This document shows, one piece after another, positions 10,864 through 27,006 of a stretch of 35,907 bases of DNA (position 1 is its first letter; every line of letters begins with the position of its first letter). The position numbers were made by a program, and so were the translations under genes. The notes beneath the pieces are model-generated. The model was not told the origin of the DNA. It saw only the letters and a program-made list of their open reading frames with translations, and did no database searches. This stretch comes from Actinomycetota bacterium (GTDB taxonomy: Bacteria > Actinomycetota > Acidimicrobiia > Acidimicrobiales > AC-14), in assembly GCA_040754375.1 (NCBI GenBank), contig JBFMCT010000034.1, forward strand, positions 1-35,907, in the 5' to 3' direction.

Positions 10864-11748
10864 CTAGCGGTTGCCGGCACCCGGTCTCTCGAGCTCGTCG
10901 AGCTCGCGCTCCACGTCTTCCCAGACGAGGACGTTGCGGGCCTGGCGTTCCTCGCGTTCGTACCAGCGGAAGAAGATCACGATGATCACCGCCCACAGGT
11001 AGAGCCCAGCCCCGATCTTCATGACCAAGCCCGCCACCTGCTGGTCGGTGATGGCGCTGATGCCCCATAGCCGGGGGAACTCCCCGTAGACCTTGTAGAG
11101 CAGGCCCTCCCCGAAGGTCAGGAACGAGGCCGGCACGGTGGGCACGATCGTCTGGAGGAACAGGTACAGCATCTGCATCAGCGGGGGTAGGCGGGGCACC
11201 TCGGGCAGGGGGCTCACGACCGGCATCCACATCAACAGGGCCGAGGTCAGCAGCACGGCGTGGGCCACGAAGTGCAGAGGGTGGAACTCGACGGTTCCCT
11301 CGACGATGAGGGGCCAGTGGCTGAGGACCAAGATGGTGTTGGCCTGGATGAGGTTGGGCACCGGCTTGGCCACCGTCTTGACGGTGCGCAGAAGCCAGGG
11401 CGGCGACAGGATGCGCCGGGCCATCCACTCAGGCGTGCCCAGCAGGAAAAGGGGGGCGGCGATCAGGGTCATCAGCATGTGCTGGACCATGTGGGCGCTG
11501 TAGAGATAACCCTCGGCCACGTCGTGGACCGGCCAGTCCGAGGCGATGAAGATGGTGAGGACGGCCCCCGCGAAGGCGGTCTTCTGGCGGCGGGTGGCCG
11601 CGGGCCGGCCCGTGCGGGCCGAGTAGGCCCGCAGGGCGAGCACATAGGCACCCACCAAGAGGGCCACCAGCACCCACACGTCGGCGTGGAAGTGCCACGC
11701 CGGGAAGCCCGCCCGCTCCGCCGTGGCAGGAGCGGTGGCCGCCAGCAT
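10864..11748 (-). CDS. ctaG: Cytochrome c oxidase assembly protein, Bacillus CtaG (caa3_CtaG) type
   Basis: A 294-residue protein with about seven transmembrane helices, matching the caa3_CtaG family rather than the Cox11-type CtaG. Marks are FIASDWPVHDVAEGYLYSAHMVQHMLMT, FHPLHFVAHAVLL and GEFPRLWGISAITDQQVAGLVMKIGAG. Members help assemble the copper centres of caa3 oxidases. The many histidines near the membrane surface fit a metal role. Its ATG overlaps the subunit IV stop by one base, placing it last in the oxidase operon. Confidence 0.9.
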   Translation of the reverse strand: MLAATAPATAERAGFPAWHFHADVWVLVALLVGAYVLALRAYSARTGRPAATRRQKTAFAGAVLTIFIASDWPVHDVAEGYLYSAHMVQHMLMTLIAAPLFLLGTPEWMARRILSPPWLLRTVKTVAKPVPNLIQANTILVLSHWPLIVEGTVEFHPLHFVAHAVLLTSALLMWMPVVSPLPEVPRLPPLMQMLYLFLQTIVPTVPASFLTFGEGLLYKVYGEFPRLWGISAITDQQVAGLVMKIGAGLYLWAVIIVIFFRWYEREERQARNVLVWEDVERELDELERPGAGNR

Positions 11749-12107
11749 CAGCGGCTCCACACCCCGGAAACGGTGAGGACGATGGCGTAGATGGCAAACG
11801 CCAGTATCAGGCCGGTGACGAACAATCGCCGGAACAGCCGGCTGTCCTGCTTGAGGTGCATGAACCACAGCACCACGACCCCGAACTTGATGGCCGACAG
11901 GACGATCAGCATGACCGTCAGGAGGTCGCCCAGGTCCTCGAAGTAGTAGATGACCACCTCGATGAGGGTGACCACGGCCAGGAACAAGGCGATCTTGATG
12001 TACTGCCAGTCACTGAGATGGTGCTGCTCGCCGTCGTGGTCGTCGTGGCCGCCCGCGTGCTCGGCCTCGGGCTCGCCCGCTTCTTGGGAGTGGGTCACGT
12101 CGGTCAC
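11748..12107 (-). CDS. Cytochrome c oxidase subunit IV (caa3 type)
   Basis: A 119-residue protein. The first 38 residues are acidic and histidine-rich (EAEHAGGHDDHDGEQHH) and may bind metal; then three transmembrane helices, starting WQYIKIALFLAVVTLIEVVI, with VVLWFMHLKQDSRLFRR after the second. This is the usual small subunit of prokaryotic caa3 oxidases (COX4_pro-like). The GTG at 12107 overlaps the subunit III stop (GTGA); a GTG three codons later is the other option. Confidence 0.88.
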   Translation of the reverse strand: MTDVTHSQEAGEPEAEHAGGHDDHDGEQHHLSDWQYIKIALFLAVVTLIEVVIYYFEDLGDLLTVMLIVLSAIKFGVVVLWFMHLKQDSRLFRRLFVTGLILAFAIYAIVLTVSGVWSR

Positions 12108-12736
12108 TTGATCAGGTACACCAGTGTGAACAGGACGATCCAGACGATGTCGACGAAGTGCCAGTAGAGGCCGACCAGCTCGACTGACTCGGCCCGCTCC
12201 TTGGGCAGCTTGCCCTTCATGGACAGGCTGTAGAGCGACAACAACATCAGAACCCCGAGGGTCACGTGCACCCCGTGGAACCCGGTGAGGGCATAGAAGC
12301 TGCTGCCGAAGAGGCTGGAGCTGAGGGTCACCCCCTCCTGGATGAAGACCGTGAACTCGTAGGCCTGGCCCCCCACGAACGTGGCACCCAAGGCGGCGGT
12401 GGTGAGCAACCAGACCCGGCACCGGCGGTGCTCGCCCCGCTGGATGGCAGCCAGCGCCAGCACCATCGTGAGGCTGCTCATGAGGAGCACGAACGTGCTG
12501 ACCGAGGTGAACGGGATGTCGTAGACGTCGTGGGGGGTGATGGCCCCTTCGGGGTCCTGGCCCTTGTAGAGCAGGTAGACCGAGATCAGCGCACCGAACA
12601 GGAGGCACTCGGAGCCCAGGAAGGCCCACATCGCCACCTTCTCGTTGGACAACCCGGTGGTGCTGGGCGGGTGGTTGGCGCCGCCCGCGTCGCCGTGAGC
12701 GGCCCCGTGCTCTTCGGTCTTGGTGGGTGCAGCCAT
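12104..12736 (-). CDS. ctaE: Cytochrome c oxidase subunit III
   Basis: A 210-residue protein with five helices, as in short bacterial subunit III. Conserved features are present: the glutamate in WAFLGSECLLFGALIS, the pair of histidines in ALTGFHGVHVTLG, and YWHFVDIVWIVLF at the end. It stabilises subunit I and the proton-uptake entrance. The ATG at 12736 lies two bases after the subunit I stop. A longer in-frame reading upstream only overlaps ctaD and is not used. Confidence 0.93.
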   Translation of the reverse strand: MAAPTKTEEHGAAHGDAGGANHPPSTTGLSNEKVAMWAFLGSECLLFGALISVYLLYKGQDPEGAITPHDVYDIPFTSVSTFVLLMSSLTMVLALAAIQRGEHRRCRVWLLTTAALGATFVGGQAYEFTVFIQEGVTLSSSLFGSSFYALTGFHGVHVTLGVLMLLSLYSLSMKGKLPKERAESVELVGLYWHFVDIVWIVLFTLVYLIK

Positions 12737-12738
12737 GA

Positions 12739-14850
12739 TCAGTCGGTCCCCTGTGAGACGGGAGCCAGCTCGGTCGAGCTGGACAGCTCGGGCTCGGGCT
12801 CCTCGGGGGCGGTCGACGGCTCCAGGGCCCAGGCATAGAGGCTGCCCAGGATCCACAGCCCGCCCAACACGCTGACGGGCAGGTACTGGTAGATGAGGCC
12901 GTAGCTCAGCACGGGCAGGCCCAAGGACGACACGAGCGGCCAATAGGAGGGCGACGGCATGTGGATGTGCTCGGTGTGGTCGCCGGTGTGGTCGCCGGTG
13001 TGGTCGCCGGTGTCGTCGCCTTCGCCACTCCCGGTGCCGGTGGTGGCCTCGTCGCCCGCACCCTCGCCGCCAGGGGGCGGGGGCCCGTCAGCGACGGCCA
13101 CCGCAGAAGAACGCCGGCCGAGGAGGGCCACGACGTCGGGCGCCATCTCCTTGCGCCTGACGGCCCGCCCGTTCTCGTCTTCCTCGTACTTCTGGTGCCA
13201 CCAGTCGTCACGGGCGGTGACCACGGGGATCTTGGCGAAGTTGTACTCCGGCGGCGGCGAGGGGATCGACCACTCCAGCGTACGGGAATCCCAGGGGTCC
13301 TCGGGCACGAGCGGGCTCTTGCGGGCCTTCCAGACGTTGACCATGAACACCAGCACGGCCAAGGCGATCATGAACGACCCGACCGTGGCCGCCATGTTCC
13401 AGAAGTTCCAGCCCATCCCGTCGGGATAGGTGTACACGCGCCGGGGCATGCCCTGGAGGCCGAGGATGTGGAACGGGCCGAACGTGAGGTTGAACCCGGC
13501 CAGCATGAGCCAGAACTGCCACTTGCCGAGCGTCTCCGATAGCAGCTTGCCGGTGAACTTCGGCCACCAGTAATAGATGCCCCCGAACAGACCGAAGATC
13601 GACCCGCCGAACAGCACGTAGTGGAAGTGGGCGACGATGTAGTAGGTGTCGGTCTGCTGGGTGTCGTGGGGGACGATGGCGTGGGTCACGCCCGACAGCC
13701 CACCGATCGTGAACATGGTGACGAAGCCGACGGCGAAGAGCATCGGCGAGGTGGCGCGGATCTTTCCCTTCCACATGGTCGACAACCAGTTGAAGATCTT
13801 CACCCCCGTTGGCACGGCGATGAACATTGTCGACGCCGAGAACGCCGACGTGGCCACGGGGCCGATCCCGGTGGCGAACATGTGGTGGGCCCATACCCCC
13901 CAGCCGATGAAGCCGATGGCGATACCGGAGATCACCATCACCTGGTAGCCGAACAGGGGCTTACGACTGAACACGGGCAGGATCTCCGAGACCACGCCCA
14001 TGGCCGGCAGGATGAGGATGTAGACCTCCGGATGGCCGAACAGCCAGAAGAGGTGCTGCCACAGCAACGGGTCGGCCCCCGCCTGGGCGTTGAAGAAGTT
14101 GGCCCCGAACTGGCGGTCGAACATGAGCAGGAACAGGGCCACGGTGATGACGGGGAGGGCGAACAGCAGCAGGAACTGAGCCACCAGCGACATCCACACG
14201 AAGATCGGCATGCGGAACAGCGTCATGCCCGGGGCACGGAGGTTGATCACCGTGACGATGAGGTTGATGGCACCCGTAAGGGACGCGATGCCCAGGATCT
14301 GGAGGCCGAACACCCAGTAGTCCATGTTGTGCCCGGGTGTCAGCCGGCTCAGGGGGGCGTAACCGAACCAGCCCCCGTTGGGTGCCCCACCCAGGAAGAA
14401 GCTGGAGTACATGAACAGTCCGCCAGCCAGGAAGACCCAGAAGCCGAAGGCGTTCAGACGGGGGAAGGCGACGTCGCGCGCCCCCACCATCAGGGGCAAG
14501 AGGTAGTTGGCCAGACCGGCCGACAGGGGCATGACGACCAGGAAGATCATGGTCGTGCCGTGCATGGTGAAGATCTGGTTGTAGGCCTCGGCCGACAGGA
14601 ACGTGCTGTCCGGGGTGCCCAACTGCACCCGGAGCATCAGTGCCTCGACCCCTCCGATGATGAAGAAGATGAAGGCCGTGACCGAGTACATGATCCCGAT
14701 CTTCTTGTGGTCGACCGTGGTCATCCACCCCCACACACCTCGGGGGTCGGTGGGACGGCGCAGCAGCCGCAGGGGGGCCGGGCGGGCCGACCCCGGAGGG
14801 GGCGGCAGCTCGGCCGGGCTCGACGACTCGGGCTGGGTGACGATGGCCAT
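12739..14850 (-). CDS. ctaD: Cytochrome c oxidase subunit I, catalytic (caa3 type)
   Basis: A 703-residue heme-copper oxidase subunit I with an intact active site, type A1. Low-spin heme a ligands H97 and H410, CuB ligands H273, H322 and H323, the cross-link tyrosine Y277 (GHPEVY), heme a3 ligand H408 (AHFH), D126 for the D-channel and K351 for the K-channel (PTGVK) are all present. After helix 12 there is a tail of about 150 residues with DDWWHQKYEED, a TGDH repeat, and a further hydrophobic segment (YWPLVSSLGLPVL, LGGLWILGSLYAWAL) that looks like a fused accessory subunit. It couples O2 reduction to proton pumping. The ATG at 14850 lies 79 bases after ctaC. Confidence 0.96.
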   Translation of the reverse strand: MAIVTQPESSSPAELPPPPGSARPAPLRLLRRPTDPRGVWGWMTTVDHKKIGIMYSVTAFIFFIIGGVEALMLRVQLGTPDSTFLSAEAYNQIFTMHGTTMIFLVVMPLSAGLANYLLPLMVGARDVAFPRLNAFGFWVFLAGGLFMYSSFFLGGAPNGGWFGYAPLSRLTPGHNMDYWVFGLQILGIASLTGAINLIVTVINLRAPGMTLFRMPIFVWMSLVAQFLLLFALPVITVALFLLMFDRQFGANFFNAQAGADPLLWQHLFWLFGHPEVYILILPAMGVVSEILPVFSRKPLFGYQVMVISGIAIGFIGWGVWAHHMFATGIGPVATSAFSASTMFIAVPTGVKIFNWLSTMWKGKIRATSPMLFAVGFVTMFTIGGLSGVTHAIVPHDTQQTDTYYIVAHFHYVLFGGSIFGLFGGIYYWWPKFTGKLLSETLGKWQFWLMLAGFNLTFGPFHILGLQGMPRRVYTYPDGMGWNFWNMAATVGSFMIALAVLVFMVNVWKARKSPLVPEDPWDSRTLEWSIPSPPPEYNFAKIPVVTARDDWWHQKYEEDENGRAVRRKEMAPDVVALLGRRSSAVAVADGPPPPGGEGAGDEATTGTGSGEGDDTGDHTGDHTGDHTEHIHMPSPSYWPLVSSLGLPVLSYGLIYQYLPVSVLGGLWILGSLYAWALEPSTAPEEPEPELSSSTELAPVSQGTD
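12973..13020 (-). repeat. 12-bp tandem repeat in ctaD tail (TGDH)n
   Basis: About four units of ACCGGCGACCAC on the coding strand encode Thr-Gly-Asp-His, in the linker between the oxidase core and the fused C-terminal hydrophobic segment. The same core ACCGGCGA recurs in repeats inside treY and the small gene at 28086. Confidence 0.75.
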
Positions 14851-14929: not shown

Positions 14930-15949
14930 TCACTGAAGGATCTCCAGATAGGCGATCAGCTTGGTGATCTCGTCGTCGGTGAGGCCCAGCGCAGGCATCT
15001 TGGCGCCCGGCTTGACCCCCGGCGGGTTGTCCAGCCACGTCCGCAGGTTGGCCGGGGTCGTGTCGAACATCGACCCGGCGAAGGTGGACCGGCTGGCGAA
15101 GTGGGTCAGATCAGGGCCGGCGTTGCCGGTGGAGACACCCGAGATGGTGTGGCACCCGGCACAACCCTTAGCCGTGAACAGCAGGAAGCCATCCTCGGCA
15201 TCGGTACCGGCCGCGGGCTCGCGGGGCGGGGCCTGCTGGTTGCGCACCCACTCGTCGAACTCGGCGGGCGGAAGGGCGATGGCCCGGTTGCGCATGTTGG
15301 CGTGGGACAGGCCACAGAACTCCGTGCACTGGCCCAGGTAGACACCGGGGGCGTCGGCACTGAAGTGCATCTTGTTGGTGCGACCGGGGATGATGTCCTG
15401 CTTGCCGGCCAGCGACGGCACCCAGAACGAGTGGATGACGTCGGCCGGGTTGCCTTCGAGGGTGATGGCCACCGAGCGGCCCGCGGGTATGTAGAGCTCG
15501 TTGGCCGTGACGATGTCGAAGTCGTCGTAGCGGTACTCCCACCAGAACTGGTGGCCGACGACCGTGACGTTGAGGGCGTTGTCGGGAGTGCGGGAAAGGT
15601 CGAAGATGGTCCGGATGGTGGGAACGGCGATGATGAGCAGGACGAGGGCGGGGGCCAGCGTCCACGCCACCTCGAGGCGGGTGTTGCCGTGGACCTGGAC
15701 GGGCTCGGGGGAGTCGTCGTCGCGCTGGCGGAACTTGATGACGGCGTAGATCGCCAGTCCCTGGACGAGCACGAACACGACTGCGGCCACCCAGAAGACC
15801 GGGTTGATGAGGTCATCGGCCTGGCGGGACACCGGCCCCTTGGGCTGGAGCGTGTCCTGGGGGGCGTCTTTGGCGCAGGCGGCCAGGGCCACCAGCGGCA
15901 GCACGGCCAGGACGCCGCGCCGCGCGCCCTTTCGTAGCCGCGTGATCAC
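14930..15949 (-). CDS. ctaC: Cytochrome c oxidase subunit II with fused cytochrome c
   Basis: A 339-residue lipoprotein-like subunit II. The signal peptide ends in LVALAAC with the lipid cysteine at C25. Two transmembrane helices follow (about 50-73 and 94-115). The CuA cupredoxin domain has H173, C208, E210, C212, H216 and M219 (GQCTEFCGLSHANM). A C-terminal cytochrome c domain has C263, C266 and H267 (CAGCH) with M318 as likely axial ligand, so this is caa3 type. It receives electrons at heme c, passes them to CuA and on to subunit I. The start is GTG at 15949. Confidence 0.96.
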   Translation of the reverse strand: MITRLRKGARRGVLAVLPLVALAACAKDAPQDTLQPKGPVSRQADDLINPVFWVAAVVFVLVQGLAIYAVIKFRQRDDDSPEPVQVHGNTRLEVAWTLAPALVLLIIAVPTIRTIFDLSRTPDNALNVTVVGHQFWWEYRYDDFDIVTANELYIPAGRSVAITLEGNPADVIHSFWVPSLAGKQDIIPGRTNKMHFSADAPGVYLGQCTEFCGLSHANMRNRAIALPPAEFDEWVRNQQAPPREPAAGTDAEDGFLLFTAKGCAGCHTISGVSTGNAGPDLTHFASRSTFAGSMFDTTPANLRTWLDNPPGVKPGAKMPALGLTDDEITKLIAYLEILQ

Positions 15950-16035: not shown

Positions 16036-17004
16036 TCAGGCGACCGTCACCACGCCCTGCATGAGCGGGTGGATGTCACAGCGGAACCAGTAGGTGCCGG
16101 CTGCAGGGGCGGTGAAGCGGTAGTCGATCCGGCTGGACGTGATGACCGCTCCCTGGAAGATGGCCAGGCCCGAGAACTCGGGGTTGCGGTAGATGGCGAT
16201 GTTGTGGGGCACCGAGTCCTTGTTGTCGTAACTGATCACGACCTCTTCGTTGGCCGGGAGGGTGATCTCTTCGGTGTCGAAGGCGATGTCGATCGACGAG
16301 ACCCGGATGGGGTCGGGGCCGGTGTGGTGGGCGTGGATCTCGCGCTGGCCGATAATGCCGGCGATCGTGCCGCCGACGACCATGAGGGCGGTCAGGACTA
16401 CCAACCCGGCAAGCAGCGACTTCGACGACATGGCCGGCCTGTAGGCCACCAGGCTGGCGAACCCGAGGATGAGCACGGCGATGCCGAGCGCGGTCCACGT
16501 TGCCCCCAGGACGGGCAGGGCCAGCAGGATGCGGGACGTGAAGAACATGACGCTGGCGATGGCCAGAAGGCCCACGACGGGGATGCCGATGGGCATGAGG
16601 TTGGTTACCCGCCGGGTGCGGTCGGACGCGACGCTGGCGATCCAGCCGACGGTGGCGAAGGCCAGTAGGCCGATGCCGGGGACGGCGGCCGCCGGCCCGA
16701 TCACCAGGGCAGCGGTGGACACCCCGGCACCCAGGGCGGCGATGGCGGGCCAGGCCGGGCCTCCGGGGAGGCGCACGGGGGCGATGGGCCGCCAGCCCGG
16801 CGCCGGGGCGTCGGCCGGGACGGGGGCCACGAACTCGCCGTCGCGGGCCGTCGTGATGACCACCGCGCCCGCGAGGGCGGCCACGGCCAGAACCAGCCAG
16901 AGCGACACGCCGACATGGTCACCGGTCACGATGGCGTACACGACCGCGGCCACGCCGCCGATGGCGACCAGGGGGAGGAAGACCTTTGCGGGCTGGGTGA
17001 TCAT
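16036..17004 (-). CDS. Polytopic membrane protein with C-terminal blue-copper domain
   Basis: A 322-residue protein. Residues about 1-220 hold six or more hydrophobic helices of no family I recognise; the first two (residues 8-50) resemble the short two-helix CtaF subunit of actinobacterial oxidases. Residues about 235-322 form a cupredoxin with a likely type 1 copper site: H267 (VPHNIAI), C309, H312 and M315 (FRCDIHPLMQG). The domain should face outside the cell and could carry electrons. The gene lies between the second subunit III and ctaC, inside the oxidase operon, so a donor or relay role for the oxidase is inferred. It starts six bases after the upstream stop. Confidence 0.8.
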   Translation of the reverse strand: MITQPAKVFLPLVAIGGVAAVVYAIVTGDHVGVSLWLVLAVAALAGAVVITTARDGEFVAPVPADAPAPGWRPIAPVRLPGGPAWPAIAALGAGVSTAALVIGPAAAVPGIGLLAFATVGWIASVASDRTRRVTNLMPIGIPVVGLLAIASVMFFTSRILLALPVLGATWTALGIAVLILGFASLVAYRPAMSSKSLLAGLVVLTALMVVGGTIAGIIGQREIHAHHTGPDPIRVSSIDIAFDTEEITLPANEEVVISYDNKDSVPHNIAIYRNPEFSGLAIFQGAVITSSRIDYRFTAPAAGTYWFRCDIHPLMQGVVTVA

Positions 17005-17010
17005 CGGGAG

Positions 17011-17643
17011 CTAAGAGAGGGCCGAGAAGAGGAACAGGGCGGACAGGATGGCCAGCCAGGCGACATTGGAGTACTGCCACAGGGCGGACACGGCTTTGAG
17101 GGGGTCGTAGCCGAAGCGCCCGAAGTGACCGGCCATGGCCCGGGACCCGACCACCACCAGCGCCCCCACGGCGATGGCCATGTGCAGCAGGTGGTAGCCG
17201 ATGAGAAGGTGGAACATCGTGCCGTAGGCGTGCTCGGCGGTGCCGAAACCGATCGTGTCGAGGTAGTACCACTGCACGGTGACGATCGAGACGCCGAACA
17301 CCAGGGTGAGGCCCAAGGCCGCCCCGGCGCTGCGCTGGTCGTTGCGGCGGATGCTCGACACCATCCACTGCATGCTGATGGCGCTCATGGCAGCCGTGAT
17401 GGCGACGACGGACGGGATGTAGGTGTTGACCCGGACACCGGGGGGCGGCCAAGACGGAGAACCTGCTTTGATGACCCACCAGACGGCCAGCAGGGTGCCG
17501 AGCACCATGGCGTCGGCCACCAACACCAGCAGCGTGCCGACCACGTTGGTGTTGGCCGGAACGGCGTCGGGCGGCGGCGGCGGGGCGACGCCCTTGCCCG
17601 TTAGGGGGGCGGCCCCATAGGACGAGGTCTGGACGAGCGCCAT
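17011..17643 (-). CDS. Diverged second cytochrome oxidase subunit III homologue
   Basis: A 210-residue five-helix protein of the heme-copper oxidase subunit III family. It keeps the fold and the two-histidine GYHLLHMAIA motif, but the conserved glutamate of helix 3 is Asp (VADAMVLGTLL) and the YWHFVD motif at the end is LWQYSNVAW. This fits a partner of the inactive subunit I encoded just before it and not a second normal subunit III. Its ATG overlaps the upstream stop by one base (TGATG), so the two are translationally coupled. Exact function unknown. Confidence 0.85.
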   Translation of the reverse strand: MALVQTSSYGAAPLTGKGVAPPPPPDAVPANTNVVGTLLVLVADAMVLGTLLAVWWVIKAGSPSWPPPGVRVNTYIPSVVAITAAMSAISMQWMVSSIRRNDQRSAGAALGLTLVFGVSIVTVQWYYLDTIGFGTAEHAYGTMFHLLIGYHLLHMAIAVGALVVVGSRAMAGHFGRFGYDPLKAVSALWQYSNVAWLAILSALFLFSALS

Positions 17644-19325
17644 CAGTTGGCCTCCGGCGGACGCAGGTCGAGCAGGGGGGTGGCCGAGCGCACCTCGGGC
17701 AGCTCGTCGAAGTTGTGGCGAGGCGGGGGCGACGTGGTGGCCCACTCGAGGGTGTGCCCGCCCCAGGGGTCGCGGGCCGCCCGCGCCCCCCGGCGCAGGA
17801 CCACGCTGAAGAGCACGTTGAGCACCACGGCGAAGGCCCCGAGCACGAGCACGACGCTGCCCAGGCTCATGAGCATGTTGGCGATCTGCCAGTCGTCCCC
17901 CGAGGAGTAGGTGCTGGTACGCACGGGCATGTCCTGGAGGCCCAGGACCAGGGCGGGCAGGAAGCTGAGGTGGGCCCCGCCCGCCAGGAGAAGGACCTCG
18001 AGGCGGCCCAGCCCCCCCGAGAGGTGGCGGCCCCACACCTTGGGCGCCCAGTAGTGGAGGGCGGCGGCGGCCGCCAGGAGGGTGGGGACGAAGTAGAGCA
18101 TGTGCTGCTGGCCCACCTGCCAGTAGTTGCGGTGGAGGTCGCCGGTGGCGTCGAGGGCCGAGATGGCGCCCGCGCCCAGCCCGACGGCCAGGACCGAGAC
18201 AAAGCCGAGGACGTGCACCATGGGAGCGGCCAGCAGGCCCTCCCGGGAGGTCCCCGCCTTGGCCCCGGCTCGCAGGGTGAGCAGCCAGTTCACGACCAGG
18301 GAGGCCACGGGCAAGAGCACGGCCAAGGCGCCCAGCACGAATATCCAGCGAGCGGCCGGGATGTTGGTCACCTCGCTGCCCCAGCCCACGAAGGACAGGA
18401 CGCCGACCGCGCCCAGCGCGGCGATGGCCTTCGGGCGGTCGGCAATGGGTCGCCGGGCGAAGACGGGCAGGATCTCGGACACCGCCCCCAGGGCGGGGAT
18501 CAGCAGGGCCCACAGCAGCGGGTAGGCGCCGAACCAGAACACCCTCGACCACGCCAGGGGGTTACCACCTCGGTTGGACGTGAGCCCCGAGAAGATCTCC
18601 GAGCCGTAGTGGTGGTCGACGTAGGCCATGCCCATGGCGGCAATCAGGACCGGCGCCGCCAGCAGCAGGACGATCCCCGACACCAGCACCGACCACGAGT
18701 AGAGCGGGAGCCGGCGCAGTGTCAGGCCCGGGGCACGGAACTTGACGATCGTGGTGATCAGGTTGGCGGCCGCCAGCACGGCCGCGGCCAAGGCCAGGGC
18801 CACCCCCAGCACCAGGAACTCGACCGCCTCCCCGCGGAAGTCGTTGCCCGCGGGATAGGGGTCGGCCAGCGACCATCCGCTGGTGAGGCGGTTGGCCCCC
18901 TGAACGAAGGCGGCGGCGATCACCAGTGCCCCGGCCGAGAAGGTCATCCACAACGCCATCGTCTGCAGGCGGGGGAAAGCCAGGCGGGCGGAGCCGATCT
19001 GCAGCGGCACGACCAGGGTGGCCAGGCCGACCCACAGCGGTACCAGGAACAGGAATACCGAGAAGGTGCCGTGGAACGTGAAGAGGGTGCGGTACTGGCG
19101 GTCGGTGAACAGGTCCCCGTCAGGGGACACGAGCTGGGCCCTCATGAGTAGAGCCAGCACGCCCCCGGCCACCAGGAAGAGGACGGCCATCACCAGGTAC
19201 TCGGTGCCGACCACCTTGTGGTCGTTGCCGCCAGCCCCCGGTCCCATCGAGGGTGCGGGCGCGCTGAGCCCCGTCTTGGGCGCCTCGGGGGCTACGTTCT
19301 CAGGGCTCGTCTGTGTCAACGCCAT
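17643..19325 (-). CDS. Heme-copper oxidase subunit I homologue without O2-reduction site
   Basis: A 560-residue, 12-helix protein alignable along its whole length with the catalytic CtaD of the same operon. Both low-spin heme histidines remain: H85 (FTFHGTFSVF) and H408 (QQHM). The oxygen site is gone: CuB histidines become Y268, T320 and N321; the active-site tyrosine becomes W272; the heme a3 histidine becomes Q406. The D-channel Asp is R114 and the K-channel Lys is L343. The fold marks NLITTIVKFRAPG, ALGAVSEILPVFARRP and DPWGGHTLEWATTSPPP are well kept, so this is under selection and not a decayed gene. It cannot be a normal oxidase or NO reductase; a low-spin heme electron relay or structural partner is inferred. 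It is the first gene of the operon. Confidence 0.92.
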   Translation of the reverse strand: MALTQTSPENVAPEAPKTGLSAPAPSMGPGAGGNDHKVVGTEYLVMAVLFLVAGGVLALLMRAQLVSPDGDLFTDRQYRTLFTFHGTFSVFLFLVPLWVGLATLVVPLQIGSARLAFPRLQTMALWMTFSAGALVIAAAFVQGANRLTSGWSLADPYPAGNDFRGEAVEFLVLGVALALAAAVLAAANLITTIVKFRAPGLTLRRLPLYSWSVLVSGIVLLLAAPVLIAAMGMAYVDHHYGSEIFSGLTSNRGGNPLAWSRVFWFGAYPLLWALLIPALGAVSEILPVFARRPIADRPKAIAALGAVGVLSFVGWGSEVTNIPAARWIFVLGALAVLLPVASLVVNWLLTLRAGAKAGTSREGLLAAPMVHVLGFVSVLAVGLGAGAISALDATGDLHRNYWQVGQQHMLYFVPTLLAAAAALHYWAPKVWGRHLSGGLGRLEVLLLAGGAHLSFLPALVLGLQDMPVRTSTYSSGDDWQIANMLMSLGSVVLVLGAFAVVLNVLFSVVLRRGARAARDPWGGHTLEWATTSPPPRHNFDELPEVRSATPLLDLRPPEAN

Positions 19326-19397: not shown

Positions 19398-20300
19398 CTA
19401 CGTCGGGATGAGCTGGTCGAGGGCCATCGCCCCGAACAGCAAGCTGACGTAGGTGATCGAGTAACCGAAGAGGCGCATGGCTCGCTCCGGGCTGGCGTCG
19501 CGGGACAGCCGGTAGGCGTGCAGGGTGAACAATGCTCCCAGGGCCACGGCCGCCCCCAGGTAGAGCAGCCCCATGGCCCCCACCCAGTAGAACAGGAGGG
19601 TCGTGGCCCACAGGGCCAGGGTGTAAGCCAGGATGCGCTTGGCCGTGGCCGCCAAGCTCACCACCGCCGGCAACATGGGCACGTCGGCCGCCGCGTAGTC
19701 CTCGCGGTAGCGGATGGCGAGGGCCCAGAAATGGGGCGGCGTCCACACGAAGATCACGGCGAAGAGCACCACCGGGGCCCAGTCCAACGAACCAGTGACC
19801 GCGGCCCAGCCCACCAGGACGGGAACGGCGCCGGCCGCCCCGCCGATGACGATGTTGCGGGTGGAGGTGCGCTTGAGCCAAATGGTGTAGACGAACACGT
19901 AAAAGAGGGTGGCGCTCACCGCCAGCACGGCGCTGAGAGGGTTCACCAGCACCCACAGCTCGACGGCGGCCACCGTCTCGAGGGCCAAGGCGAAGATCAG
20001 GGCGTTGCGGGGCGTGATCTCTCCGGTGACCAGCGGCCGGCTCTTCGTCCTGGCCATCAGACGGTCGATGTCGCGGTCGATGTACATGTTGAGGGCGTTG
20101 GCCCCGCCCGCGGCCAGGGCCCCGCCGACGAGCGTCGCCGCGATGAGCCACAACGGGGGCATGCCGCGCTGGGCCACGACCATGGTCGGGACCGTCGTGA
20201 CCAGCAGCAGCTCGATGATCCGCGGCTTGGTCAGAGCGACGTAGGCGGCGAAACGGCTACGGCGGCCAGCATTTTCGGAACTACGGAGAGCCGGCTGCAT
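19398..20300 (-). CDS. ctaB: Protoheme IX farnesyltransferase (heme O synthase)
   Basis: A 300-residue UbiA-family prenyltransferase with about nine helices. The first Asp-rich motif is N71MYIDRDID (N71, D75, D79) followed by RTKSRPLVTG; the later conserved loop is YTIWLKRTSTRNIVIGGAAG and then WTPPHFWALAIRYREDY. It adds a farnesyl group to heme b, the first step to heme A for the nearby aa3-type oxidase. Starts at ATG 20300 or GTG 20360. Heme A synthase (ctaA) is not in the window. Confidence 0.95.
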   Translation of the reverse strand: MQPALRSSENAGRRSRFAAYVALTKPRIIELLLVTTVPTMVVAQRGMPPLWLIAATLVGGALAAGGANALNMYIDRDIDRLMARTKSRPLVTGEITPRNALIFALALETVAAVELWVLVNPLSAVLAVSATLFYVFVYTIWLKRTSTRNIVIGGAAGAVPVLVGWAAVTGSLDWAPVVLFAVIFVWTPPHFWALAIRYREDYAAADVPMLPAVVSLAATAKRILAYTLALWATTLLFYWVGAMGLLYLGAAVALGALFTLHAYRLSRDASPERAMRLFGYSITYVSLLFGAMALDQLIPT

Positions 20301-20379
20301 CTGGGCCTTGAGACTAGGCGGTTGCGTCAGCCGGTCCACAATCCGGAGCGCGACGGGCAACTTGAAGCGAGCCCCTCGT

Positions 20380-21712: not shown

Positions 21713-24700
21713 GTGGGCTGGTGCCACGAGTTCGGCTGCCAGATCGCCGAAGGCTGCAACCACCCCATGCAGGCCGGGGCTACGGCCTGCGAGTGCACCG
21801 AGTGCAAGGTGGTGTGCGAGGGTCGCTTCGGTAGCTGCCCCGAGGTCTGGGCCCGCGGGCCCCGGCCGGTCCACCTCGTAGCCCGGGACTCGCCCCCGGC
21901 CGCGACCGCAGCCACTGGCACCCGGGAGGCGGGGCGGGGCGGCCGGTCCCGGCCCACCGCCACACCCGCGTCAGGGGAAGCCCCCAACGGGCGTGCCGCC
22001 GGTGACATCGAGTTCGCCCCGCCTCCTCCGCCCCCCCCGCCTCCGGCCCCGGCCGCCCCGCCGCCCGTGCCCGTCCCGCGGCCACCGGGCCGCGTAGATG
22101 ACGACGCCGACTGGTTGCGCAGCGAGCTGGGTCACCTTCACGACCAGGTGGAGTCGCTGGCCGCCACCGTGGCCCGCCAGCAGTCAGTGTTCGTCGACAT
22201 CGCCGGTGCCCGGACGGCCGAGCTCCAGACGGCCCTCACCCAGATGTCGAGCCTGGCCGCCGACCTCGTGGCCGAGACGGCCCGCCTGCGCGAGCTCCAG
22301 GACGCCATCTCGCACCACCTCCATGACCTCGTCCTCGACGTCGTGCAGCCCGAGCTCAAGGCCCAGCTCGGCAAGGGCCTCCAGCCCCTGATCGCCGAGG
22401 CCATGGCCCCCGAGCTGAGGCGGGCGCTGGCCGACCAGCTCCCCGCAGTCGTCGCCACCCACGTCAGCCCCGACGTACGCCAGCTCGTCTCGGACTGGCT
22501 GCCCGTGATGGTGGCCGACACCGTCCAGCCCGAGGTCCGCCAGCTCCTGGCCGAGAGGCTGCCCGACATCACGGCCGCCGCCGTGCAGCCCGAGCTGCGC
22601 CGGGTGCTGGCCGAGCGGCTGCCCCACCTGGTAGCCGACACCGTCCGGCCTGAGCTGACCCGCGTGCTGGCCGAGAGGCTCCCACTGACCGTGCAGGAGG
22701 CGGTGACGCCCGAACTACGGGACATGATCTCCGCCGAGCTGCCCAGACTGGTGTCCGACACGGTCCGGCCCGAGGTCAGGGCCGGGCTCGACGAGCGCCT
22801 GCCCGGAGTGGTCAGCCAGATCGTCGGGCCCGAGGTCAGGCGCCTGCTGGCCGAACGGTTGCCCCACCTGGTGGCCGAGACGGTCCAGCCCGAGCTGCGC
22901 CAGGCATTGTCCGACCGGCTCCCGCACCTGGTGAGCGAGACCGTCCGGCCCGAGGTCAGGGAGGCTCTCGACGACCGTCTGCCCGGGCTGGTGGCCCAGA
23001 TCGTGAGCCCCGAGGTACGCCGGGCCCTGGCCGAGCGTCTCCCCCTCCTGGTGGCCGAGACCGTGCAGCCCGAGCTGCGCCAGGTCCTGGGCAGCCGGCT
23101 GCCGGCCATCGTGGCCGAAGTCGTCGGCCCGGCCGTCGGTTCCCTGCTGGTCGAGCGCCTCCCCGCCATGCTGGCCGAGGCCGTCACCCCCGAGCTGAGC
23201 GTGACCCTGGCCGAGACCGAGAGCGCGGCGTCCGAGCTGCGCCACGAGGCCGCCAAGCTGAGAGGTCTGCGCGAGGTGGTGGCCGAGCGCCTGCCCGAGA
23301 GCGTCATGAGCGCCATCCAGCCCCAGATCCAGGAGGCCCTGGCCGTCCGCTTCCCCCGCCTGGTGGGCGAGCTGGTCGAGCCCATCGTCAGGGTCGTGAT
23401 GACCGACCAGCTACCGGCATTGGTGGCGGCCGCCGCCCAGCCGGGTGTCCTCGATGCCCTCAACAGCCGGGTCCCCGAACTGGTGGCCGAGGCGGTGAAG
23501 CCCGAGATGCGGTCGCTGGTGGCCGAGGCCCTGGGGAAGCAGTTGCCCGCGGCCGTCGCCGAAGCGGTGCAGCCGGAGCTGCGCCGGCGCCTCGGTGAGA
23601 ACCTCCCCTCGGTCGTGGCCCAGGTCGTCACCCCCGAGGTGGTTGCCCTGGTGGCAGCCCGCCTCCCCGCCCTGCTGGGTGAGCTCGTCCGGCCGGAGCT
23701 GACCGTCTCGCTGGCCGACATCGAGTCCACGGCGGCCGACATGCGAGCGGAGACGGCCCGGATCCGCGCCCTGCGTGAGGTCGTGGCCGAACGTCTTCCC
23801 GAGGCCGTGATGGCAGCCGTCACGACGGTGCTCGACGAGTCGCTCGTCCCCAAGCTGCCCGAGCTCCTGCCCGAGCTGTTCAGCAAGATCGTCCCGTCGG
23901 CGCTCACCGAAGCGGTGGCCAAGCCCCTGCCCGGTGCCCTCGACCGGATGCTGGAGCCGGCCCTGCGCCGGGCGCTCGCCCAGGAGCTGCCCGACCTGGT
24001 CCAGAACGCCATCGCCCGGGAGGTCCAGCTGGGGCTGGGGGAATCCCTCCCCGCCCTGGTGGCCGAGGTCACCACGCCGACGTTGCGGGCGGCCACCGAC
24101 CGCCTCTCCGAGTCGATAAGCGGTCTGGGCGACCTGCGCGACCGCCTGCTGGGGAGCGTCGCCCAGCTGACCCAGGAGGCGGCCGCCGCCCCCTACGCCC
24201 AACTCGAGCAGTCGTCGCGCCAGCTCACCGCCGAAGCCGAGCGGGTGGCGGAGGTGCGGGCCGAGCTCCTGCGCTCGGTGCCCGCCATGGTCGAGGCCGT
24301 GACCGCCGGGCCCCTGGCCGATTTCGAGGCCTCCGCCGCCCAGCTCCGGGCTGAGGCGGCCCGGATGGCCGCCCTGCGGACCGAGATCACCGCCCAACTA
24401 CCCTCCCTGGTGGAGGGCATGGCCTCCGCCCTTGGGGCCGGGGGCGCAGGGGCGGGTGAGCAGCTCGTGCAGGCAACGGTGGAGCAGGCCGTCGCCCGGT
24501 CCATGGTCGACCTGGAGGCGGCCGCCAGCCGGCTGCGGTCAGAGGCCGACCGGTTGCGGGACACAGGCGACGAGATCAGCGGGAACCTGCCGGCGTTGGT
24601 GGCCGCGGCCGTGTCCGCCACCGGCCAGCAGGGGGAGGGGGCCGACGGCCCGACGGGCGAGGGCGCCCACCTGTCGGGCCTTGTGTCCGAAGCCGTCAGG

Positions 24701-25423
24701 CAGCCCCTGGCCGCCATGGAGGCCATGACCGGCCAGCTGCGCCAGGAGGCGTCCCGACTGGGTGGTCTCCACGACGACGTGGTCAACCGTGTACCGGCCC
24801 TGGTGGCCGAGGCCGTCACTTATGCCCTGGCCACCTGGTCGGCCGCCAGCCCGGCACCGGCCGGCACCCGACCAAGCGCGGTCGACAGCCCGGTCCCCGG
24901 GCCCGAGCCCGGCTCGGCCCCCGACGGCCCAGCCGCCGGCCCCCCTCCGGTGGCCGCCGGGGGCACCGGTCCACCGCCGGCCACTGCCGATCGGGAGCCC
25001 AAGGGGCCCGAGACCGCCGGCCCTGGCGAAGGGCGCGGGCCGGCGGGCGCGCCCCGCGACATGGCCGGGGACGGCCCGGGAGACGGTGGCTCTTCGGCCG
25101 AGAGCGGCATCCCGCCGGCCGAAGACCACAGGGAAGCCCCCAGCGCCGAAGGCCCCGTGGCCGGCGGAGGCCCCGTGGGCCACGGCTCGGACGGGCCCAG
25201 CCCCCCGGCGGTGAGGGCCGGCGGCGCCCGGAGCGCCACCCCGGACGACCCGCCCCGGCCGGGGTGGAAGTCAAGCCCGAGGCCCGGCCCGAGGCCCGGC
25301 CCCAGGCCCGCGACGAGGGCGGCCCCGAGGACGGCCCCGAGGACGACGCCACGACGCTCGCTCTCGTCCTCGACGGTCTGGTCGTCGGCCCCACCCTGGC
25401 CCGGGGGGTGGCCGAGGCCGTGA
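21713..25423 (+). CDS. Giant proline-punctuated helical repeat protein, likely frameshifted at 3' end
   Basis: About 1,180 residues read clearly. Residues 1-46 are a Cys/His-rich motif (WCHEFGCQ, then CECTECKVVCEGRFGSCPEVW), probably metal-binding. A Pro-rich linker follows, with PPPPPPPPPAPA. Residues 211-490 are fourteen 20-residue repeats, pattern VxPELRxxLAERLPxLVAxT. A second block of similar units occupies about 535-660, and about 700-1040 are longer coiled-coil repeats of the type AAxLRxEAxRLxxLR. The rest is Pro/Gly/Ala-rich. After about 25264 this frame turns into Arg/Pro/Ser-rich shadow, while the frame of the next gene looks coding, so one base may be lost or gained near 25200-25264. 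Start GTG 21713 has AGGGGAGG nine bases upstream. I do not recognise the family. Confidence 0.8.
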   Translation: MGWCHEFGCQIAEGCNHPMQAGATACECTECKVVCEGRFGSCPEVWARGPRPVHLVARDSPPAATAATGTREAGRGGRSRPTATPASGEAPNGRAAGDIEFAPPPPPPPPPAPAAPPPVPVPRPPGRVDDDADWLRSELGHLHDQVESLAATVARQQSVFVDIAGARTAELQTALTQMSSLAADLVAETARLRELQDAISHHLHDLVLDVVQPELKAQLGKGLQPLIAEAMAPELRRALADQLPAVVATHVSPDVRQLVSDWLPVMVADTVQPEVRQLLAERLPDITAAAVQPELRRVLAERLPHLVADTVRPELTRVLAERLPLTVQEAVTPELRDMISAELPRLVSDTVRPEVRAGLDERLPGVVSQIVGPEVRRLLAERLPHLVAETVQPELRQALSDRLPHLVSETVRPEVREALDDRLPGLVAQIVSPEVRRALAERLPLLVAETVQPELRQVLGSRLPAIVAEVVGPAVGSLLVERLPAMLAEAVTPELSVTLAETESAASELRHEAAKLRGLREVVAERLPESVMSAIQPQIQEALAVRFPRLVGELVEPIVRVVMTDQLPALVAAAAQPGVLDALNSRVPELVAEAVKPEMRSLVAEALGKQLPAAVAEAVQPELRRRLGENLPSVVAQVVTPEVVALVAARLPALLGELVRPELTVSLADIESTAADMRAETARIRALREVVAERLPEAVMAAVTTVLDESLVPKLPELLPELFSKIVPSALTEAVAKPLPGALDRMLEPALRRALAQELPDLVQNAIAREVQLGLGESLPALVAEVTTPTLRAATDRLSESISGLGDLRDRLLGSVAQLTQEAAAAPYAQLEQSSRQLTAEAERVAEVRAELLRSVPAMVEAVTAGPLADFEASAAQLRAEAARMAALRTEITAQLPSLVEGMASALGAGGAGAGEQLVQATVEQAVARSMVDLEAAASRLRSEADRLRDTGDEISGNLPALVAAAVSATGQQGEGADGPTGEGAHLSGLVSEAVRQPLAAMEAMTGQLRQEASRLGGLHDDVVNRVPALVAEAVTYALATWSAASPAPAGTRPSAVDSPVPGPEPGSAPDGPAAGPPPVAAGGTGPPPATADREPKGPETAGPGEGRGPAGAPRDMAGDGPGDGGSSAESGIPPAEDHREAPSAEGPVAGGGPVGHGSDGPSPPAVRAGGARSATPDDPPRPGWKSSPRPGPRPGPRPATRAAPRTAPRTTPRRSLSSSTVWSSAPPWPGGWPRP
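22343..23182 (+). repeat. Fourteen tandem 60-bp coding repeats
   Basis: Exact 60-base periodicity from 22343 to 23182. Each unit encodes 20 residues with Pro at position 3, Glu at 4, a Leu/Val at 5 and RLP near position 12-14. Units are diverged in sequence but not in length, so they are old and kept in register by selection. They are predicted to be amphipathic helices broken by prolines. Confidence 0.92.
23315..23686 (+). repeat. Second block of the 60-bp repeat family
   Basis: Six more degenerate units (starting at 23315, 23375, 23435, 23495, 23567 and 23627); the fourth has a 12-base insertion (VKPEMRSLVAEALGKQLP). The 44-residue spacer before the block (LAETESAASELRHEAAKL and following) is itself repeated after it (LADIESTAADMRAETARI), showing a larger duplication. 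Confidence 0.8.
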
Positions 25424-27006
25424 CGCGCGCCCGGGCCCGCTACCGCCGGCGCCGCCAGGTTGGACCACCGGCCCCCGGGCTGCGCCATGAGGAGCCGTTC
25501 GCGGGGCCCGTCGTCCGGAGGCTCGACCTGTTCTCGGGCGCCCGACCGGCGGGCCCGGGCCGCAAGGGATCACGCACCCCGGCCCCCCGGGCCGACGCCG
25601 TCGCCGTGGGCGAGCGCGACGGCAACGAGGTAGTGCTGAGGCTCAGCGAGTCCGGCCACCTCAACCTCGAGGGCCCGGCGGCCCGGTCCGCCCTGCGCTC
25701 GCTGGTCATCTCCCTCCTGATGGCCAACCCGCCGACGGCCGCCGGGGCGATCGTCATCGGAGAGCTGTTTGCCGACACGCCGGCGTTCCCCGGGCTGGGC
25801 CGCAGTCGCGACACGGCTGCGGTCCTGAAGGGCGTGCAGGCGGAGGCGGCCCGGCGCTCCAAGGCCATCGCCGAGGCCGGGGTGCCGGACTTCTGGGCCT
25901 TCCGGGCCGGCCGACCGGACGAGCTGATGCCCTTCCTCGTCCTCACGTCGGCCACGCTCGACGCCACGGAAGCCTCCCGGCTGGCCGAGACCATCGAGGA
26001 CGGCGCCCGGGTGGGCATGGTCGCGGTCGTAGCCGGCCCGCCGGTGGAGGGCTTCACCCAGGTGCGGCTGCGGGGTGGCCGGGTCGAGAGCGTGGCCCCG
26101 AACACGAACACGACCGACCTGGTCGGCACCCGGCTGTTCACCTTCGAGCGCGACCCCGCCTCGCCCCTCCTCGAGCTGCTGGCCGCGGCCCGCAGCGATC
26201 CGGCCCAGGAACCGCCGATCGCCCCTGTCAGCCGGTTCACTGCGATCGCGGCCGACACCGCCCTGGTCCGGGTCAACATGCTCGGGGCCTACCGGATCGA
26301 GGCTCGGGGCAAGGAGGTGAGGGCCGGGCTGCGGGGCAAGGCCAAGGAGCTCCTGGCCTTCTACCTCCTCCACCCCGAGGGCACCACGCTGGAGCAGGCC
26401 ACCGAGACCCTGTGGCCCGAGGTCGACGGCCGGCGAGGCTCGGAGTGGTTCTGGACGGCTCTCGGCAACCTCCGCAGCCGGTTGCGAACGGTTACCGGCG
26501 ACCCCGACCTGAAAGTCATCGAACGCGAGGGCGACCAGTACAAGGTCGAGCCCGTGTTCGAGGTCGACCTGTGGGAGTTCGAGGGCGCGCTGGCGCGAGC
26601 CGAGGCTGCGGCCAGCAGCGAGAACCACGACTGGCCCGACCAGCTCCAGGACACGGCCGACCTCTACACCGGGGACCTCCTGGCCACCGCCGGCTGGCCG
26701 TGGGTGCGAGCCTGCCGGGAGGACCTACGAGGCCGGGCGGTGGACGTCCTGGTCTCGCTGGCCGGCGCCCGGGGTCGGGCCGGTGAAGTCAAAGCCGCCT
26801 TGGCCGCTCTCGAGCGGGCCATCGAGGTCGACCCCTTGGCCGAGCAGCTCTACCGGCGGGTCATGCGCCTGCACGCCAAGCTCTCCCAGCCCGACCAGGC
26901 CGACGCCGCCTTCAAGTCCCTGGTGGGCCGCCTCGGCGAGTTCGACCTGAGGCCCAGCCCCGAGAGCGAGAAGCTGCACACCGAGCTGTGCGCCGCCCCG
27001 AGCTGA
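25264..27006 (+). CDS. SARP/BTAD-type regulator domain protein, probably C-terminal half of the repeat protein
   Basis: A 580-codon frame. After an acidic/basic Pro-rich head (EARPEARPQARDEGGPEDGPED), residues about 100-330 form an alpha-beta region (VVLRLSESGHLNLEGPAA, then IVIGELFADTPAFPGL) typical of the middle of large actinobacterial BTAD proteins. About 335-430 is an OmpR/SARP-like winged helix (VNMLGAYRIEARGKEVRAGLRGKAKELLAFYLL...TLWPEV) and about 440-575 the BTAD TPR domain. The only usable start is a GTG at 25264 with no clear Shine-Dalgarno, 160 bases inside the previous gene. Taken with the frame quality on either side, I think both genes were one reading frame of about 1,760 residues split by an indel. 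It may regulate envelope or secondary functions; target unknown. Confidence 0.8.
   Translation: MEVKPEARPEARPQARDEGGPEDGPEDDATTLALVLDGLVVGPTLARGVAEAVTRARARYRRRRQVGPPAPGLRHEEPFAGPVVRRLDLFSGARPAGPGRKGSRTPAPRADAVAVGERDGNEVVLRLSESGHLNLEGPAARSALRSLVISLLMANPPTAAGAIVIGELFADTPAFPGLGRSRDTAAVLKGVQAEAARRSKAIAEAGVPDFWAFRAGRPDELMPFLVLTSATLDATEASRLAETIEDGARVGMVAVVAGPPVEGFTQVRLRGGRVESVAPNTNTTDLVGTRLFTFERDPASPLLELLAAARSDPAQEPPIAPVSRFTAIAADTALVRVNMLGAYRIEARGKEVRAGLRGKAKELLAFYLLHPEGTTLEQATETLWPEVDGRRGSEWFWTALGNLRSRLRTVTGDPDLKVIEREGDQYKVEPVFEVDLWEFEGALARAEAAASSENHDWPDQLQDTADLYTGDLLATAGWPWVRACREDLRGRAVDVLVSLAGARGRAGEVKAALAALERAIEVDPLAEQLYRRVMRLHAKLSQPDQADAAFKSLVGRLGEFDLRPSPESEKLHTELCAAPS

Follow-up and report, generated by a model that had tools for sequence, protein, structure and literature searches.

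What is a subunit I of the heme–copper oxidases kept for once the site at which oxygen is reduced has been lost? The question is raised by an Actinomycetota bacterium of the order Acidimicrobiales (assembly GCA_040754375.1), from which contig JBFMCT010000034.1 was analysed over positions 1–35,907, hereafter the window (35,907 nucleotides). On its minus strand, at 17643–19325, a 560-residue protein that we call pseudo-CtaD is encoded in the same gene cluster as the catalytic subunit CtaD of a caa3-type oxidase (12739–14850, minus strand). Pseudo-CtaD is a COX1 paralogue without an oxygen site that retains the histidine pair of the low-spin heme. We conclude that it is a non-catalytic CtaD paralogue with a single origin from an aa3-type subunit I. 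As to its role, we hold with roughly even confidence that pseudo-CtaD and its companion genes would form a structural or biogenesis platform throughout the order, with one low-spin heme beside type-1 copper in the window's own family.

Loss of the oxygen site

By descent, pseudo-CtaD is a subunit I of the heme–copper superfamily. Indeed, a hidden Markov model search of subunit I families matched it to Pfam COX1 (E = 1.4e-75; 255 bits against a cut-off of 34.8), and its predicted model of 12 long helices (predicted local distance difference test score 80.7; predicted template modelling score 0.85) superposes on solved aa3 subunits, with Z 46.0 and 3.1 Å over 515 residues for 6adq_F, and Z 45.8 and 2.1 Å over 489 for 3omi_A. 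An initial annotation of the window had described a preserved fold and, by eye, a gap-poor match to the CtaD of the same operon. Both descriptions hold, the alignment giving 33% identity over 520 columns with 27 gaps.

Residue alignment likewise bears out the survival of both axial histidines of the low-spin heme (H85, codon 19071–19073; H408, 18102–18104; all codons on the minus strand) and most of the substitutions that had been listed with them. The first CuB histidine is replaced by Y268 (18522–18524), the cross-linked tyrosine by W272 (18510–18512), the proximal histidine of heme a3 by Q406 (18108–18110), the D-channel aspartate by R114 (18984–18986) and the K-channel lysine by L343; the E286 site, absent from the earlier list, is occupied by L270. 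Against the two remaining CuB histidines the alignment places S317 and E318, not T320 and N321 as first proposed, and no histidine is found at either placement. The catalytic CtaD has the full ligand set (residue row HNDHEYHHKHDHFHRR) and scores above the cut-off of TIGR02891 (670.75 bits), below which pseudo-CtaD remains with 386.7 bits. Pseudo-CtaD thus lacks what characterizes an A-type oxygen reductase, namely the CuB histidines with the cross-linked tyrosine, the heme a3 histidine and the residues of the D and K channels. Nitric oxide reductases possess histidines for their non-heme metal and high-spin heme; at the corresponding columns pseudo-CtaD has none, and it falls outside the cNOR and qNOR enzymes and their relatives. 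Judging from these residues, the protein would be unable to reduce oxygen.

Among 78 columns invariant in catalytic subunits, 19 are lost in all 10 copies of the window's clade, and these include each of the six catalytic residues considered (three CuB histidines, the heme a3 histidine, the cross-linked tyrosine and the E286-type glutamate; hypergeometric p = 1.06e-4). Retention of the low-spin histidine pair is less remarkable on its own, because 34 of the 78 columns are kept in 10/10 copies and a random pair is kept approximately 19% of the time. At the lost sites, W272 and S317 are found in 10/10 copies of this clade, Y268 and E318 in 9/10, a conserved set that looks like the filling of a former cavity.

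Distribution and single origin

We retrieved 65 full-length copies of pseudo-CtaD, 56 from genomes of the window's order and nine from named actinobacterial records; 47 were placed in a tree (38 from relatives and the nine named records), and 18 are extra loci. No pair is more than 95% identical. Among 60 relatives, the window's genome included, 41 carry the gene, three of them in partial or interrupted form (G034, where it is split over two frames, G045 and G054). In the 19 copy-less relatives and five genomes of sister orders, a search with the 47-copy profile found only catalytic COX1 in the loci viewed (30/30, plus 10 stretches), the short fragments G058:C27, G233:C11 and G037:C80 being set aside from this check.

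The extra loci come from a class-wide search of 247 genomes, in which 20 further loci were chosen and 18, all in the window's order, proved to be copies; L249, the best candidate of another order, and L250, from a member of the order, hold catalytic COX1. In a search across the phylum, 30 loci were fetched: two are degenerate, both from the window's order, and 28 keep the CuB and heme ligands, 26 of these coming from outside the order. Loci were taken from the tops of lists scoring the best four candidates per genome in the phylum search and the best five in the class-wide search, and occurrence outside the order is not excluded beyond the top candidates viewed. A scan of named genomes covered the best 80 of 599 matches. 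Where NCBI gives a class, the records with a copy belong to the Acidimicrobiia (L071–L073, L125, L131 from Ilumatobacter and L149 from Ferrithrix), with the exception of L110 (Actinomycetes); the titles of the remaining records stop at the phylum, and L142 carries the name Ca. Microthrix. L071–L073 were taken as the loci of G003, G008 and G007 and counted once.

In a COX1 tree of 109 rows, the 47 pseudo-CtaD copies form one side of a single branch (support 100 in the SH-like approximate likelihood-ratio test; stem 0.76). Grouped with this clade, at a support (84) that is not high, are a Conexibacter row and 16 aa3-type CtaD rows from the order; the 28 caa3 CtaD rows stand apart from it (support 100). 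The inner branching order is uncertain because of long end branches. A duplication of the neighbouring CtaD was also considered and is ruled out by this tree, in which the nearest group is of aa3 and not of caa3 type.

Graded loss of the metal ligands

The initial annotation had left room for local error or decay, of which homologues with intact CuB histidines would be the sign. At the sequence level, at which replacement ligands were also considered, the first CuB histidine is kept in 0/65 copies and no single copy retains two or more of the three. Local error or decay as the origin of pseudo-CtaD is ruled out by the 65 copies.

The low-spin pair is complete in only 19/65 copies (19/47 in the tree, 0/18 among the extra loci); the other 46 lack one or both histidines, yet lie in the same gene cluster. 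The copies thus share no metal ligand of the oxidase. Of the earlier proposal of a 'single-heme membrane electron carrier or scaffold', the first half finds no support for the family at large, and the scaffold half fits better. In the window's clade, H85, H408, R62, W151 and F263 are found in 10/10 copies, against 7/37 for R62 and 0/37 for both W151 and F263 in the remaining tree copies. R62 may correspond to the bovine arginine near heme a.

The heme a3 histidine occurs in 6/47 tree copies (L040–L043, L046 and L102), all of which also have both low-spin histidines, so that an oxygen-inert ligand set for two hemes exists. With both helix-X histidines, the helix-II histidine and no CuB ligands, these six proteins display an apparent two-heme, copper-less core.

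The cupredoxin partner

Downstream of pseudo-CtaD lies a gene (16036–17004, minus strand) for a membrane subunit with a C-terminal cupredoxin, here named CuPR (Cupredoxin_1, 2.6e-8). Its model displays seven helices and a beta domain. The cupredoxin domain (16042–16308, minus strand) has a type-1 copper loop C-x2-H-x2-M (CDIHPLM) and matches the fold of auracyanin A (2aan; Z 14.1, 1.6 Å over 94 residues, 35% identity); on fold and Cys/His/Met loop, the C-terminus is a type-1 copper cupredoxin. Matches in the fold search cover this part and none covers the membrane part, for which Cyt_c_ox_IV (PF12270) gave E = 0.5 in the window and 0.012 in L047, both below the cut-off.

Of the 46 assessable tree copies (L035 is cut by its contig), 18 have the copper loop; it was found in 0/18 extra loci. 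Two CuPR genes encode tandem cupredoxins with a copper loop in each (L036:2503–3858 and L037:5744–7087), and the CuPR end in L065 (8737–9861) resembles a cupredoxin domain but yielded no type-1 copper loop. No CuPR was detected in L064, L257 and L258, nor at loci where the contig ends.

In the 46 tree copies, low-spin histidine pair and copper loop occur together in 16, are jointly missing in 26 and disagree in four. These figures, the complete conservation of the heme surroundings in the window's clade and an intact copper loop on an auracyanin-like fold all speak for a one-heme relay, in which CuPR copper would take the place of CuA above the pseudo-subunit and exchange electrons with a single low-spin heme, so connecting a donor (a soluble carrier, quinol or a bc complex) with the caa3 cytochrome c. 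However, each trait changes only twice on the tree, there are two independent pairs, and their co-loss is not phylogenetically significant; the agreement (42/46) is therefore a lead rather than a test. Moreover, the heme has no evident electron exit, and a relay is impossible as an order-wide role, the ligand pair being incomplete in 46/65 copies. We regard such a relay as a tentative possibility. Equally doubtful is the history that would go with it, of a one-heme wire feeding or buffering caa3 in the window's family, other lineages having later stripped the cofactors and kept the scaffold.

Many CuPR copies without a cupredoxin end in short acidic tails, often bearing histidines, which follow a G-x-R-[DE]-[FI] motif; in many copies this motif, and then a histidine, come after the seventh transmembrane helix. 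Such tails could suit a storage or insertion factor, in which CuPR would bind copper through its cupredoxin or its acidic histidine tail, and the pseudo-subunit would present heme to caa3. But the tails vary and are nearly free of histidine in L060 and L059, and the dedicated factor CtaG is also encoded; we consider this explanation very unlikely.

Selection and the cytoplasmic face

Ratios of non-synonymous to synonymous substitution (dN/dS, NG86 method) range from 0.12 to 0.44 in eight close pairs of pseudo-CtaD and from 0.07 to 0.26 in three CtaD pairs; the pair L059/L149, without either low-spin histidine, gives 0.117. On this codon evidence, the close pseudo-CtaD pairs are under purifying selection. 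A pseudogene or an assembly artefact can practically be dismissed: high divergence, the two-frame gene of G034, and G033, with its truncated CuPR and no caa3-type CtaD found, might have evoked one, but it is refuted by 65 open, full-length copies, none more than 95% identical, that form a single clade under purifying selection.

This selection is unevenly spread over the protein. Averaged over the 47 tree copies, column identity reaches 0.384 at the cytoplasmic side but 0.251 at the periplasmic one (p = 9e-8). Neither catalytic set is skewed in this way (0.692 versus 0.728, p = 0.34, for caa3; 0.656 versus 0.625, p = 0.46, for aa3, cytoplasmic versus periplasmic, respectively). The initial view that losses are restricted to the catalytic and proton-pumping sites must thus be abandoned, as the periplasmic half is relaxed relative to the cytoplasmic face. 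Invariant in all 47 copies are P107, Q109, A116, R119, R197, G280, G432 and G489.

Gene order and company with the caa3 oxidase

The window's cluster is tightly packed and follows a recurrent order of ctaB, pseudo-CtaD, COX3L and CuPR, then the full caa3 operon CtaC-D-E-F-G, all on the minus strand. Heme O synthase of the UbiA family is encoded by ctaB (19398–20360, start provisional; Pfam UbiA, 1.2e-65). COX3L (17011–17643; Pfam COX3, 1.6e-10) is a divergent CtaE-like subunit III, whose top NCBIfam match, aa3_CtaE_Actin, remains under its cut-off (59.9 bits against 190); its ATG (17643–17641) overlaps the TGA stop of pseudo-CtaD (17645–17643) as TGATG. When sequences are assigned to COX3L or CtaE by whichever of the window's two proteins they match best, the 38 COX3L rows form one group (support 97). 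After CuPR come CtaC, with a CuA domain and the fused cytochrome c of the caa3 type (14930–15949; COX2, 3.2e-21; Cytochrom_C, 2.2e-11), the catalytic CtaD, the caa3 subunit III CtaE (12104–12736; Pfam COX3, 2.5e-23), CtaF (11748–12092, start provisional; COX4_pro, 3.9e-12) and the assembly factor Caa3_CtaG (10864–11868, start provisional; 1.5e-43).

Upstream of pseudo-CtaD, ctaB is found in 39/41 of the relatives' loci, the other two ending at a contig edge, and in 18/18 extra loci. A second gene of the Caa3_CtaG family is encoded on the opposite strand in L031 (2559–3356), L032 (5842–6483) and L038 (5510–6475), and a similar frame in L033 and L034. In L032 and L034, approximately 5 kb separate CuPR from CtaC.

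A caa3-type CtaD is present in 37/41 genomes with pseudo-CtaD, on the same stretch in 30 (in G013, as a fragment at the contig end) and elsewhere in the genome in seven, with 65–79% identity to the window's CtaD. It was not found in G007 (81% complete), G009 (70%), G038, whose contig stops inside CtaC, and G033. The locus of G033 (L053), with its truncated CuPR, could reflect breakdown of the module after loss of the oxidase, or a chimeric contig. In G049, the catalytic CtaD is split over two frames (L054:5641–7820) and pseudo-CtaD is open. Among the 19 copy-less genomes, this caa3 CtaD was found only in G010, at a contig edge, on a 4.2-kb contig that starts with a piece of CuPR; identity to the window's CtaD does not exceed 52% in the remaining COX1 genes measured in these 19 genomes. 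Finally, five sister-order genomes have a caa3 operon without the trio of pseudo-CtaD, COX3L and CuPR (in L192, the view upstream is cut off by a contig end inside CtaC); therefore, the trio most likely joined the caa3 operon during the evolution of the order.

This close company would also be expected if pseudo-CtaD were a stoichiometric subunit of mature caa3, forming an asymmetric pseudo-dimer with CtaD, much as the cofactor-poor CydB partners its paralogue, the catalytic subunit CydA, in cytochrome bd. However, the same kind of caa3 operon does without pseudo-CtaD in the sister orders, G033 has pseudo-CtaD where no caa3-type CtaD was found, and the linkage to ctaB is equally strong. We judge a dead protomer of this kind unlikely.

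A proposed platform for heme and subunit delivery

A structural or assembly role is favoured because no core metal ligand extends over the whole family, while the gene itself, its adjacency to ctaB, its partners and the conserved cytoplasmic face do. Pseudo-CtaD, COX3L and the seven-helix CuPR would form a membrane module that accompanies the caa3 oxidase in Acidimicrobiia and in which the cytoplasmic face of pseudo-CtaD may dock partners. The platform would most likely hold CtaB, nascent caa3 or both, so that heme and subunits could be delivered in place. The active site of UbiA-type enzymes, CtaB among them, faces the cytoplasm, which would suit docking there. In the window's family, the module would still bind one low-spin, bis-histidine heme beside the type-1 copper domain, and might also take a minor part in electron transfer.

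Several observations weigh against this platform. A type-1 copper domain kept in 18/64 assessable modules is odd for a pure scaffold, and heme appears to be retained in the window's clade, since its two ligands, R62, W151 and F263 are complete there though mostly lost elsewhere. The face bias is weaker in that clade (0.561 cytoplasmic versus 0.475 periplasmic, p = 0.007), and the test takes helix ends from the predicted model and assumes canonical topology. The cytoplasmic motifs belong to the general COX1 fold and may have been kept for folding, not for docking. The putative link to CtaB draws on gene adjacency, the cytoplasmic-face bias and analogy with a COX1-like protein of Acetobacter discussed below. 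Besides, ctaB and pseudo-CtaD are not always one transcript, since five loci of the window's family (L031–L034 and L038) have a CtaG-like frame of opposite strand between them (three of the five were profile-scanned, 3/3 being Caa3_CtaG).

If the platform is real, a respiratory enzyme family that ranks among the best studied contains a subunit put to a second, non-catalytic use over much of an order, and environmental genomes hold fewer oxidases than the annotation 'cytochrome c oxidase subunit I' implies. The series of two-heme, one-heme and no-heme ligand sets on one fold would then offer a direct test of which regions of the core act in inserting heme and assembling the enzyme, and which in catalysis.

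Other features of the window and its genome

On the plus strand of the window, a 1236-residue open frame (21713–25423) with many repeats of the type ERLPxLVxExVxPELR overlaps a frame at 25264–27006. The window's genome (G000) has two more COX1 genes, on contigs C50 and C79 (L193 and L194), and three cytochrome b genes (C41, C50 and C79), two of which share contigs with the extra COX1 genes.

Comparison with known systems

Pseudo-CtaD most resembles the actinobacterial aa3-type CtaD, such as that of Mycobacterium smegmatis (6adq_F), in its fold, its 12 helices and its nearest tree group, and both have the C-terminal motif DPW...LEWAT.SPPP..NF; unlike aa3-type CtaD, it lacks the CuB ligands, the heme a3 ligand and the D- and K-channel residues. 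As a cofactor-poor paralogue kept beside a catalytic oxidase subunit it recalls CydB, which belongs to a different protein family. CuPR shares the cupredoxin fold and type-1 copper loop of auracyanin and amicyanin, but differs from both in being fused to a seven-helix subunit within an oxidase gene cluster.

The initial annotation knew of no described class with this ligand set, a statement that now needs a caveat. In Acetobacter, a 'deranged' COX1-like protein without cofactor ligands is clustered with ctaB, and a structural role, stabilising CtaB, has been proposed for it; it occurs in acetous taxa where the bo3 ubiquinol oxidase dominates (PMC10715153, citing Matsutani 2014). No comparable protein appears in the searched passages of PMC8239418, PMC9145763, PMC8357290, PMC4013037 and PMC4007555, and the open literature searched revealed no COX1 relative that is widespread in an order and lies in a live caa3 operon with such partners and a one-heme stage. 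Likened by description, the Acetobacter protein and pseudo-CtaD are both COX1 homologues retained alongside ctaB. The window's copy keeps two heme ligands and so does not belong with the Acetobacter protein, described as ligand-less, and pseudo-CtaD differs further in lying within a live caa3 operon, where a subunit III-like protein and a cupredoxin protein of its own accompany it. The new aspects relative to the described Acetobacter case are thus the working oxidase beside pseudo-CtaD, the wide retention of pseudo-CtaD in an order and the existence of a one-heme stage.
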